A stretch of 40,239 nucleotides of DNA from Candidatus Treponema merdequi (lineage in GTDB: Bacteria; Spirochaetota; Spirochaetia; Treponematales; Treponemataceae), in assembly GCA_018064525.1 (NCBI GenBank), contig JAGHVB010000009.1:1-40239 (forward strand), written 5' to 3'. Below the pieces are notes generated by a model. The model saw only the letters and a list, made by a program, of their open reading frames with translations, was not told the DNA's origin and searched no databases. A program made the translations under genes and the position numbers. Shown here one piece after another: positions 28,610 to 32,950 of this stretch. Each line of letters starts with the position of its first letter. Positions within the stretch are counted from its first letter, which is position 1.

Positions 28610-30841
28610 ATGGATAATCAAAAAGTTAAAAAATTTTTATTTTATTTTTGCAGAATCTTCCCTGCTGTATTTCTTCTGGCTTTATTTTTATTTCCAATAA
28701 GCATAAAAGAAATCAATCTGTATGATTCACTCTCCCCTGTAGAACTTATTTACGCTTATTTACTTCCTTTCTGCAGCAGTTCAGACTTTTATGTTCCTGT
28801 TTTACATTTTCTGTTTTTTATAATTTATTTTATTCCAGCAACAGTCATTATTCTGATAACTTCTATTTTTGTAAAAAAAATTTCAAATAAACTTTTGTTT
28901 TATTTTGTTCTTGCAGGTTTAACAATTTATATTTTCTGTTCTGTTTCCTGCATGATTATTTCTGCAAATACAATAATATGGTTTTCAAAAATTCCACCTA
29001 TAACTTACATATTTTTTCTTCTTGCATTTTTATCACATCTTGCACTAAGCATTACAGGAATACTTTATATCCGAATCAGTAATCCTGAATATGCACAATA
29101 CAAAGGTCTCAGAAAAGATGAACTTTTAAAATGCAAAAATCTTTCTGACAAACTGCAGAAAAAAAACATCAAGACAAAACTTACTCTTTCAATTATTTCT
29201 GCAATTGCCATTATTCTTTTTTCATTTATGGTTTTAATTCTCAGAAGATATGAAAACCTGATTACAGAAACTGTAAGCGAAACAGGACGAGTTCAGGCAG
29301 AACAGACAGCAGCAATCTATGAAACTGCAGAAGGAAAAAATGACAAGATTTCACTTTTCTTCAGTCAGCAGAAAAAATCAAATTCTTTTGCCGACACTCC
29401 TTTTGAACGAATTGATATTATCATTACAAATGCCGGAACAAACATTTATCTGGAAAACATTACTCCTGAAACAGAACTTCCGGATTACAATGTTTTTGCT
29501 TACACAACTTCAAAACGTTCACTTATTCCAGAAGAAGAACTTTCAATTACAGCAGAAAAAGCACACGAATACATTAAGCTTTATCAGTCAGGAGCTTACC
29601 GTAAAACACCTGTTTATAATAAAACACACAGAACATGCAAATTTATTCATCCAGTCACATTTACAAAAAAAGCAGGTCTTAAACTTTTAGGTTTTTCAAT
29701 TGTCACTTACCGTGAAGATGTCTTAATGAAAGCATTTTTTAAAACTAAAGTTTCTGTTTTTGCACTTTCATTTGTATTTCTTTATCTTTCTGTAATTCTT
29801 TCTTTATTTCTTTCTGACTACATCGCAAACCCTCTTCTCTTTTTACGAACAAATGTCAGAAAGACATCAGAATCACTTTCAACACTTTTATCTGGCCGCG
29901 GAAAAATCAAGGCAGAAACAATTACATTCGATGACACAATTAAAACTAAAGATGAAATCAAAGATCTTTCAACAGAAATCGGCAATATGGTTTCTTTAAT
30001 CCGGGGAATTGTTCCATACATTTCTTTCTCTACCCTGAAACACGCAGACGCAGAAACAAAAAAATCCGTATCGCGTGAACTCTGCTTTTTATTTACAGAT
30101 ATCCGTGGATTTACAACACTTTGTGAAGGACGCGCTCCAAAAGATATTGTTTCAATTCTCAATCATTATCTCGACATCGAAACAGAAATCATTTTGAAAA
30201 ACGGCGGTGACATCGATAAATTTGTCGGAGACGAAATGATGGCATTCTTTGCCGGTCCAAGAAAAGAAATCAATGCATGCAAAGCCGCAATGGAAATCCG
30301 CGCTGCAATGAAAGAACAGCAGAAACTTTCAAAAGCAAAAGGAAGTGATTTTATTTCCATCGGAATTGGAATCAACACAGGAAATGTCGTATTCGGTTCT
30401 GTCGGATCAAAAACAAGGATGGACTTTACTTCAATCGGCGACACCGTAAATCTTGCAGCGCGTCTTGAAGGAGCAAACAAAGCATACGGTTCAAAAGCCA
30501 TCATTACAGAAGCTGTTTACGAAAAACTGAACGAAACTTTTATATGCCGTGAACTCGATTTTATAAAAGTAAAAGGAAAATCAGAACCGGTCCGCATCTA
30601 TGAAATTCTGCAGTTAAAAACACAGGCTTCTGAAAAACTTAACGAAATAAAATCACTTTTTGAAAAAGGTCTGCACTTTTATCGAAGACAAAATTGGGAA
30701 AAGGCTGCACTTTATTTCAAGGAATGTAATGATAAATATTATGATCTTCCAAGTCAGGTTTTTCTGGAAAGAATAAGACATTTTAAATTTACGCCACCTC
30801 CTGCAAAATGGGACGGTGTATTTGAAATGAAGGTAAAATAA
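28610..30841 (+). CDS. Membrane-bound class III adenylate cyclase
   Basis: A 743-residue sensor cyclase. N-terminal part with four or five membrane segments (about 5-155), a span near 190-210, an extracytoplasmic sensor region (about 215-375), a further span (AFFKTKVSVFALSFVFLYLSVILSLFL, about 375-400), a HAMP-like linker (DYIANPLLFLRTNVRKTSESL) and a class III cyclase domain (about 489-675). Metal-binding Asp are D497 (FTDIRGFT) and D541 (KFVGDEMM); the Lys of DKFVGD and the Thr of DFTSIGDTVNLAARLE fit ATP rather than GTP. A C-terminal TPR-like helix pair (KGLHFYRRQNWEKAALYFKECND) ends it. Start at ATG 28610; the frame extends 15 codons upstream into the terminator, which is not credible. 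No Shine-Dalgarno; GTGGAATTTATAAA lies directly before the ATG. Confidence 0.87.
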   Translation: MDNQKVKKFLFYFCRIFPAVFLLALFLFPISIKEINLYDSLSPVELIYAYLLPFCSSSDFYVPVLHFLFFIIYFIPATVIILITSIFVKKISNKLLFYFVLAGLTIYIFCSVSCMIISANTIIWFSKIPPITYIFFLLAFLSHLALSITGILYIRISNPEYAQYKGLRKDELLKCKNLSDKLQKKNIKTKLTLSIISAIAIILFSFMVLILRRYENLITETVSETGRVQAEQTAAIYETAEGKNDKISLFFSQQKKSNSFADTPFERIDIIITNAGTNIYLENITPETELPDYNVFAYTTSKRSLIPEEELSITAEKAHEYIKLYQSGAYRKTPVYNKTHRTCKFIHPVTFTKKAGLKLLGFSIVTYREDVLMKAFFKTKVSVFALSFVFLYLSVILSLFLSDYIANPLLFLRTNVRKTSESLSTLLSGRGKIKAETITFDDTIKTKDEIKDLSTEIGNMVSLIRGIVPYISFSTLKHADAETKKSVSRELCFLFTDIRGFTTLCEGRAPKDIVSILNHYLDIETEIILKNGGDIDKFVGDEMMAFFAGPRKEINACKAAMEIRAAMKEQQKLSKAKGSDFISIGIGINTGNVVFGSVGSKTRMDFTSIGDTVNLAARLEGANKAYGSKAIITEAVYEKLNETFICRELDFIKVKGKSEPVRIYEILQLKTQASEKLNEIKSLFEKGLHFYRRQNWEKAALYFKECNDKYYDLPSQVFLERIRHFKFTPPPAKWDGVFEMKVK

Positions 30842-30912
30842 TTCCAGCAAAGATGATTACGTTGAAATCAAAGGCAAATTGAAAGTCACACCAAATGAAA
30901 ATTCATGTAAAC

Positions 30913-30941
30913 TTGAACTCTATTAAGATAAATCGTATGAT
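30913..30941 (+). promoter_or_regulatory. Candidate promoter of the structured RNA
   Basis: TTGAAC (30913-30918), 17-bp spacer and TATGAT (30936-30941), placing the transcript start near 30948. The -10 lies inside the left end of the inverted repeat. A mirror candidate on the other strand (TCGAGA with TAAAAT) is weaker but cannot be excluded. Confidence 0.45.
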
Positions 30942-31118
30942 AAAATTTCTATGTTAAAAACCTGCGAGAGGGAAGAAAGCAGAGCCCGGCAGGACTTGAA
31001 AGGCGAAAAGATAGTTTCCTTGCCGACTTTCATGTCCAGCGACGCCAGCTAGCGGTGCCGGGGTCTGCTTTCTGACCGGAAGTAAGTTTTTAAAAATAGG
31101 AATTTTATCCTACGATTT
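30930..31118 (+). ncRNA. Candidate structured RNA within a 189-bp imperfect inverted repeat
   Basis: Left and right halves pair over almost their whole length. From outside in: AAATCGTA with 31111-31118 and an AT-rich near-match inside it; AAAAAC (30956-30961) with GTTTTT (31086-31091); GAAAGCAGA plus CCCGGCA with TGCCGGG plus TCTGCTTTC; GGACTTGAAAG with CTTTCATGTCC (one mismatch); then GGC-GCC closing an A/T-rich tip. A 21-nt side element (around AGCGACGCCAGCTAGCGG) protrudes from the right arm only. The core is far more GC-rich than flanking DNA, as expected of structured RNA in an AT-rich genome. SRP RNA often lies just upstream of dnaX, but the conserved SRP domain IV tetraloop and AGCAG motif are not seen. 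Strand is set by the better promoter; T5 follows the stem at 31087-31091. Confidence 0.6.
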
Positions 31119-31126
31119 TCCTAATC

Positions 31127-31155
31127 TCGACTATTATCTAAATTTCCACTATAAT
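31127..31155 (+). promoter_or_regulatory. Predicted leaderless promoter of dnaX
   Basis: TCGACT (31127-31132), 17-bp spacer ending in TTTCCAC, and consensus TATAAT (31150-31155). Seven nt separate it from the dnaX ATG; no Shine-Dalgarno. It begins 9 nt after the inverted repeat ends. Confidence 0.65.
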
Positions 31156-31162
31156 ACTTTCT

Positions 31163-32950
31163 ATGGCATACGAAGTAACAGCGACACGAAGAAGACCGCA
31201 GTCATTTGACGCCCTCATAGGCCAGGAATTTGTTGCGGCAACTCTCAAACATTCAATCGAAAACGGACAGATTGCTCACGCTTACCTTTTTACAGGACCT
31301 AGAGGCTGCGGTAAAACATCTACAGCCCGAATTCTTGCAAAAGCACTTAACTGTCAGCACGGTCCGACAGCAACACCATGCGGAGAATGTTCCACATGTC
31401 AGGAAATCACAAAAGGCTCAAGCCTCGACGTAATCGAAATTGACGGTGCTTCAAACACAAGTGTCAACGACATCCGTCAGATTAAAGATGAAGTCATGTT
31501 CCCGCCAAACTCCTGCCGCTATAAAATCTATATCATCGACGAAGTTCATATGCTTACAACAAACGCATTCAATGCACTTCTCAAAACAATCGAAGAACCA
31601 CCTCCGTATGTAATTTTTATTTTCGCAACAACAGAACTTCACGAAGTTCCAGCCACAATAAAAAGCCGCTGTCAGCAGTTTAACTTTAGACTTGTTCCAA
31701 TTGAAAAAGTCAAGGAACAGCTTGCAGCTGCATGCAGCGAAATCGGAATCACTGCAGAAGACGAAGCTCTCTACTGGATTGCACGCGAATCAACAGGAAG
31801 TATGCGAGATGCGTATACTCTTTTTGATCAGGTTGCAGCATTTTCAGAAGGTCACATCACATATGAAAAAATCCGTGACAAACTCGGACTTGTCGGAACA
31901 GAACGCTTAAACGAAATCTTTGATGCATGTGTTGACGCATCTCCTGTTGCTGTTACAGATAAGCTCGATGCTTTCCTTCAGTCAGGAATCTCAATCGACC
32001 AGCTTATTACAAACAGTGCAGATTATCTTCGAAGCTGTCTCTTAATTAAAAATGGAGTCACAAAAGAAGCACTCCTCGGCCAGTCAATCGAACGATACAG
32101 CAAAAAAGTTTTAACAGAATGGTCATCGATTCAGATTGAAAGAGCTCTTTCTCTTTTCTTAAATCTTTACCGCGACATCCGTTTTTCACTTTCACCGCGC
32201 TATGAAATTGAACTTCTTTTCAGCAAACTCTGCTGGTTAAAAGAATATGTAAGTCCTGCAGAAGTCAAAAAAGCTGTTGATGCTGCACATGCACTTTTAA
32301 TGAACGGAACATCACAGATAAATTCTTCAGAAAAAAATTCCGCAAATGGAATTTCGTCAGGCACAAATTCAACTCAAAGCAGTTATTCCGCAGCAAGTTC
32401 TTCAAATTCTTCATCGCAGTTCATAAACCCGAATCTTCCAAAAATGGCAACATTTGAAGCACTGGAATCGAGCGGACAGAATTATTCTTCCCAACCCTCA
32501 GAACCGGAGCCTCAAGAAGACCCTTTTGACAATGGCGGTGCCCTGCCGCCTAAAACAATAGCGGCAGCCACAAACGAAACTGAATTTAAAGCAGATTTTT
32601 CAAATACACAGTCTGCACAGAACAATACAGATGAACTCGAAGCATTAAAAGCAAAAGTTGTTGCAACAATGTCTGTAAATGACGCTTTTGTCAGTGCTGG
32701 TCTTATGCAGACTGGAAAATGGATTTTAAACGAAAACAATATTTCCACAACAATTGAATCTTCTTTTCAAAAATCACAGCTTGATGCAAAAATAAAAGAA
32801 ATCTCATCCTGCATTTCTGCAATCATGGGACGCGAAATTAAATTTTCCATAAATCTGTTTGAGCAGAAAACAAATACAACACCTGTAGAAATTCCAGAAC
32901 AGGTAAATATATTGTGTAAAGTTTTTAAGGGAAGCGTTATCGGAGGTTAA
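31163..32950 (+). CDS. dnaX: DNA polymerase III subunit gamma/tau
   Basis: DnaX clamp-loader ATPase, 595 residues. Walker A is GPRGCGKT (45-52), the zinc module has C64, C73, C76 and C79, Walker B region is IYIIDEVHMLT, and sensor 1 is FATTELHEVP followed by the arginine-finger SRC. Domain III follows to about 370, then a low-complexity Ser/Asn/Gln linker (385-490) and a C-terminal domain that would bind the polymerase in tau. A run of seven A at 32331-32337 falls at the start of the linker; slippage there would give a shorter gamma-like product, but this is speculative. Cotranscribed with ybaB and recR: its stop overlaps TAATGATG of ybaB. Confidence 0.96.
   Translation: MAYEVTATRRRPQSFDALIGQEFVAATLKHSIENGQIAHAYLFTGPRGCGKTSTARILAKALNCQHGPTATPCGECSTCQEITKGSSLDVIEIDGASNTSVNDIRQIKDEVMFPPNSCRYKIYIIDEVHMLTTNAFNALLKTIEEPPPYVIFIFATTELHEVPATIKSRCQQFNFRLVPIEKVKEQLAAACSEIGITAEDEALYWIARESTGSMRDAYTLFDQVAAFSEGHITYEKIRDKLGLVGTERLNEIFDACVDASPVAVTDKLDAFLQSGISIDQLITNSADYLRSCLLIKNGVTKEALLGQSIERYSKKVLTEWSSIQIERALSLFLNLYRDIRFSLSPRYEIELLFSKLCWLKEYVSPAEVKKAVDAAHALLMNGTSQINSSEKNSANGISSGTNSTQSSYSAASSSNSSSQFINPNLPKMATFEALESSGQNYSSQPSEPEPQEDPFDNGGALPPKTIAAATNETEFKADFSNTQSAQNNTDELEALKAKVVATMSVNDAFVSAGLMQTGKWILNENNISTTIESSFQKSQLDAKIKEISSCISAIMGREIKFSINLFEQKTNTTPVEIPEQVNILCKVFKGSVIGG

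Follow-up and report, generated by a model that had tools for sequence, protein, structure and literature searches.

A dispersed intergenic repeat with a conserved multi-helix fold, found before dnaX in Candidatus Treponema merdequi

The locus before dnaX

The window, i.e. the whole stretch of DNA analysed, comprises 40,239 nt of Candidatus Treponema merdequi (GenBank assembly GCA_018064525.1, contig JAGHVB010000009.1, forward strand). Positions 30930-31118, between an adenylate-cyclase-like ORF and dnaX, are predicted to form a single long interrupted hairpin with an additional element on one side; the features are summarized in Table 1. The folding energy of the + strand of 30920-31130 is -91.4 kcal/mol against a mean of -49.6 kcal/mol for shuffled sequences (z = -10.4; none of 200 shuffles reached it), and the GC content of the core (approximately 136 nt) is 49-51%, in comparison to 27-38% in the stretches on either side. 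The original prediction was right on all of these points: the coordinates, the interrupted hairpin with its one-sided element, and the GC richness. In the H4 loop, one pair of positions (X-Y) covaries between copies as CG, GC, AU or UG, and in distant copies H4 is a perfect palindromic hairpin.

Table 1. Coordinates of the element and of dnaX in the window
Feature	Position	Strand	Remarks
Left outer arm	30930..30954	+	AT-rich palindrome arm, sequence copy-specific; partner 31094-31118
Helix H1, 5' strand	30956..30965	+	Partner 31082-31091; both-sided changes in all 8 pairs of the model
Purine internal-loop motif, 5' side (GAGA-GG-GA)	30966..30973	+	GNRA-like 4-nt strand, two G-C pairs, GA; strongly kept in A1 and distant copies
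Helix H2, 5' strand	30974..30990	+	Partner 31057-31073; letters vary by subfamily, complementarity retained
Hairpin H3	30992..31037	+	Both-sided changes in all 13 modelled pairs
H3 apical sequence ATAGTTTCC	31011-31019	+	Nearly invariant
H4, one-sided element (AGCGACGCCAGCTAGCGGT)	31038..31056	+	Side hairpin of the three-way junction; core letters invariant
Helix H2, 3' strand	31057..31073	+	Fold and covariation
Purine internal-loop motif, 3' side (GA-CC-GGAA)	31074..31081	+	CTGACYGGNAG in A1, CGACYGGGAG in distant copies
Helix H1, 3' strand	31082..31091	+	Fold and covariation
Right outer arm	31094..31118	+	Partner is the left arm
dnaX	31163..32950	+	Mere neighbour of the element; from the ORF list

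The element had been proposed as a possible new structured RNA with its own promoter-like sequence and a following T-run. A promoter-like match does overlap the left arm (30913-30941), but it is weak (9/12), and the best match (10/12; 31127-31155) lies outside the element and is directed into dnaX; the T-run is present, yet it belongs to the outer palindrome arm, and no clear terminator is formed. In the interval that separates the element from the adenylate-cyclase-like ORF (30842-30929) there is, by eye, an apparent C-terminal remnant (..VEIKGKLKV..*) of a small gene that precedes dnaX in the nearest relative, G007, which suggests a local rearrangement.

Small SRP RNA can occur near dnaX in other bacteria, and it is likewise a long hairpin. 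Only the genomic position favours a housekeeping RNA such as a variant of SRP or 6S RNA, and this reading is refuted: the window has no match to the SRP RNA model (RF00169), the SRP RNA of the genome is located on another contig (C56:21177-21275; 59.7 bits), and the element is multi-copy. No tRNA or tmRNA genes were found in the window, and no Rfam 15 family scored above its gathering threshold in the window copy or in 20 loci holding other copies; a permissive scan of 30800-31250 gave two matches, both far below threshold and both outside the core. Variant SRP, 6S, tmRNA and RNase P RNAs and all other Rfam families were therefore discarded. Furthermore, the region upstream of dnaX is devoid of the element in G007, whose dnaX is 93% identical, and in 12 further relatives. 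An RNA gene at an SRP-like position before dnaX is hence not supported, as the position is not conserved; a role in dnaX regulation was rejected for the same reason, and any effect of the element on dnaX would be incidental.

Conservation of the fold and its strand

For 55 diverse copies aligned without reference to structure, RNAalifold predicted 39 base pairs, with double changes in 35 of them. In an alignment of 126 distinct copies, which was guided by the covariance model and thus leans toward the structure but agrees with the structure-free one, 95.1% of the cells were paired (64.5% when shuffled), both sides had changed in 38 of the 39 pairs, and covariation scored 0.746 (0.201 when shuffled; at most 0.132 in slid controls). 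Covariation across Treponema genomes, which had been proposed as a check of the structure, was hence confirmed. The distant copies preserve the layout and carry an additional hairpin in the H3 loop. The unpaired motifs hardly vary; these are the purine internal loop (GNRA-GG-GA / GA-CY-GGNA), ATAGTTTCC, and AGCGACG..TA..CTAGCG. The fold of the element is, to judge from this covariation, under selection. Together with the lack of an Rfam match and the SRP RNA on C56, the overwhelming covariation bears out the original view of a structured element outside the SRP, 6S and tmRNA families.

The mismatches tolerated within the inner helices are strongly asymmetric. In a count that was not planned beforehand and was made on related sequences, G.U exceeded A.C by 105:18 and G.A exceeded C.U by 120:8 in H2 and H3 (110:19 and 120:8 with H4 included), whereas H1 gave 14:10 for G.U against A.C; over the whole structure-free alignment, the ratio of G.U to A.C was 54:19. 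The + strand is therefore the folding one. Since single-stranded DNA, too, tolerates G.T and G.A better than other mismatches, the asymmetry picks out the strand and not RNA over DNA. The outer arms have no strand preference, neither in folding energy (p=0.18) nor in G.U count (152 vs 122), and their pairing is copy-specific: among 82 copies, the energy was -21.8 kcal/mol for arms paired in cis and -11.4 kcal/mol for arms paired with those of other copies (p=4e-13). The inner domain is, on this comparative evidence, selected as a folded + strand; H1 and the outer arms look like a double-stranded palindrome.

Alternatively, the element may be a transcribed non-coding RNA of a new structured class. 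Its inner domain would be a functional RNA that became multi-copy via mobile palindromic units and works either in trans or upon the unit that carries it. We consider this possible but rather unlikely. The confinement of the strand asymmetry to H2-H4, the near-invariance of the unpaired motifs in distant species and the both-sided covariation speak for such an RNA; against it stand the mismatch tolerance of single-stranded DNA, the lack of a conserved promoter or terminator, the random orientation of the copies, and copy numbers that fall to zero in some closed or near-complete genomes (below).

Distribution and site turnover of the copies

Six more copies of near-full length, at 85-93% identity to a 198-bp stretch covering the element, lie on other contigs of this genome, and approximately 10 dispersed copies were predicted in it by the covariance model. 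By BLAST, related copies were found in 15 of the 98 genomes of the genus and, at the family level, in three genera; the covariance model detected the element in 52 of the 98 Treponema genomes. The copy number ranges from 0 to 59, with 25 copies in the closed genome G044, 55 and 59 in the near-complete genomes G063 and G075, respectively, and none in some closed or near-complete genomes. An order-wide search with the model (294 genomes, 83 genera) placed the element in only three genera of one family (f1), and none in other families. When the pattern of the conserved core was compared with 85,000 species, only Treponema, Treponemataceae and Spirochaetales assemblies matched, from horse faeces and cattle where the record title states the source. 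The element was not found in phages, in plasmids or in a pattern scan of viral contigs (IMG/VR), and a phage or plasmid origin was dismissed on these grounds. No description of it was found in the open-access literature (CC-licensed PMC papers), and the repeat is apparently undescribed.

The sites differ between close relatives. G007 lacks the element also at the C10:42430 site, and a 6-kb stretch that carries two more copies is missing as well, whereas the C14:18462 site is common to both genomes; the empty sites have diverged too far to give junctions at single-base resolution. The copies are oriented at random with respect to neighbouring genes (17/15/15/11), and 90 of 93 copies are clear of ORFs of at least 90 aa. 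G086 carries units of 446-448 bp that form two pairs, 97.8% identical and set in unrelated flanks, and their sharp ends are bounded by AATGTCGAGTTTTG / CAAAACTCGACATT; each unit consists of one divergent and one canonical hairpin, facing away from each other. Among 21 close pairs of copies, 10 have their 5' ends facing, 11 are in tandem, and none have their 3' ends facing; many copies are single. Tandem duplications of 234-238 bp (element plus flank) are present at contig ends (L102:6700-7241 and L104:1-530), suggesting longer unassembled arrays. Other repeats and RNA elements occur close to some copies: seven 19-bp palindromes (TGACATCTAGTAGATGTCA and variants, spaced by 32-42 bp) surround two copies in L114:2507-2924, and a glycine riboswitch (RF00504; L215:1785-1883) is located approximately 130 bp from a copy in the closed genome G044.

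Some copies apparently lie inside terminator-like palindromes, and copy-specific flanks suggest that copies may have been inserted into pre-existing palindromes; no empty site is close enough to serve as proof. Such positions, as well as the large stable hairpin with an A-rich 5' arm and a T-rich 3' arm, are in line with a bidirectional transcription terminator or mRNA 3'-end element. This is very improbable, as neither a clear enrichment between convergent genes nor an orientation bias was observed, and neither a conserved side hairpin nor a conserved apical sequence is required for a terminator.

An ordinary palindromic MITE would be a DNA transposon shortened by deletion, with long terminal inverted repeats and a fold that is a mere by-product of the palindrome. 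In its favour are the dispersed, ORF-free copies, the TA at the ends in one burst, and the outer arms, which behave as terminal inverted repeats. Many dispersed copies with target duplications had been named beforehand as the mark of a MITE; the dispersed copies were found, but target-site duplications were not consistent, since TA is present at the ends of some copies only, in one burst, and none is seen in the G086 burst. Nor does a palindrome predict a conserved one-sided element, conserved loops, or a tolerance of G.U and G.A on one strand, and the MITE reading is already strained by this strand asymmetry. An autonomous parent with the same ends would be a further trait of a MITE; when the 578 ORFs near 93 copies (86 loci) were clustered, no transposase gene and no other partner-like protein recurred, and an autonomous neighbour gene was accordingly discarded. 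We regard a MITE of this kind as unlikely.

The genes between opposed copies are ordinary or, by eye, Rpn-like; in G075, two Rpn-family nuclease/transposase-like genes (by eye) lie between two opposed, equally scoring copies (L238:819-2645). Y1 transposases (PF01797) are absent from the closed genome G044 and from G077, G075, G063 and G004, which all hold 9-59 copies. RAYT-like genes co-occur with the subtype of the window (7/13 vs 5/85 genomes; p=7e-5, uncorrected for kinship), and no copy of the element was found within a few kb of them; a RAYT/Y1 transposase was thus rejected as the mobilising enzyme, being missing from copy-rich closed genomes and not flanked by copies. The RAYT-like Y1 genes of Treponema (approximately 250 aa; L257-L275, e.g. 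G000:C62:28688-29020), often found at contig ends, mostly have a GGGGTCTGTCCCC / GGGACAGACC repeat on either side. This repeat differs from the element, and the genes and their repeat look like a separate RAYT-REP system. Similarly, no reverse transcriptase (PF00078) was found in the genome of the window (G000; 99.8% complete), G044, G077 or G004, and there was no association between reverse transcriptase and the element across genomes (p=0.83); an RNA element mobilised by reverse transcription (group II intron or SINE-like) was rejected for these reasons.

Interpretation and closest known systems

The element is dispersed and multi-copy, its sites turn over between genomes, its fold is conserved in a strand-specific manner, and it has no genes of its own. 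It is probably a non-autonomous mobile repeat with a folded-strand core that is mobilised in trans by a putative enzyme. On this reading, the unit is a DNA palindrome with copy-specific pairing of its arms, and it encloses a folded single-strand domain made up of H1, the purine internal-loop motif, H2, and the three-way junction at which H3 (with the ATAGTTTCC loop) and H4 meet; many units contain a pair of these hairpins, which point outward from their 5' ends. Acting in trans, the putative enzyme may recognise the folded + strand via the conserved loops, either in single-stranded DNA exposed at replication or transcription or in an RNA copy, and may move or copy the unit into intergenic DNA. 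Once its fold is lost, a copy would cease to spread, and the fold would therefore be maintained by compensatory changes. The conservation at unpaired positions exceeds that of most mobile repeats, which leaves room for a host function.

More tentatively, the element might represent a new class of mobile elements, with a strictly conserved three-way-junction RNA (or single-stranded DNA) domain within a DNA palindrome and a new fold-reading mobiliser of a type other than HUH (Y1) transposases and reverse transcriptases. The dispersed repeats of bacteria are, as a rule, short hairpins of simple structure, whereas a fold of 39 pairs with a three-way junction and invariant loops is conserved here on one strand only, in a repeat that is confined to one spirochaete family and whose outer arms evolve as a DNA palindrome. 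A one-strand fold implies a partner that reads it, i.e. a transposase, RNA-binding protein or processing enzyme, and this partner should be findable by comparing closed genomes with and without the element.

Integron attC sites are imperfect hairpins with one-sided extra bases that are conserved as a fold and not as a sequence, a description that also fits the element; an attC identity was rejected, for the RYYYAAC/GTTRRRY ends are lacking by inspection and the copies are not in cassette arrays. REP/REPIN elements with RAYT transposases are described as dispersed intergenic non-autonomous hairpins for which the inverted doublet is the mobile unit (PMC3116915, PMC3733652), with REPs being 20-40 bp palindromes that carry a GTAG or CGTC tag (PMC3733652). 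The element is likewise multi-copy, dispersed, extragenic and non-autonomous, with alternative complementary residues in the stems and G-T pairing, and the 5'-facing arrangement of about half of its close pairs recalls the inverted doublet, although many copies are single. In contrast to the short tagged palindromes, its core has a three-way junction and purine loops, and the RAYT (Y1) association is missing. ERIC (RU), BOX and similar MITE-like repeats are palindromic, intergenic, approximately 100-200 bp in length and without a transposase of their own (see also PMC2759123, PMC10969869). The element shares with them the intergenic palindrome without a transposase gene, and differs in its restriction to one spirochaete family. 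We know of no strand-specific multi-helix covariation with a conserved side hairpin and loops in ERIC (RU) or BOX. In its lifestyle the element appears comparable to REPIN or ERIC, but it is larger and differently built.
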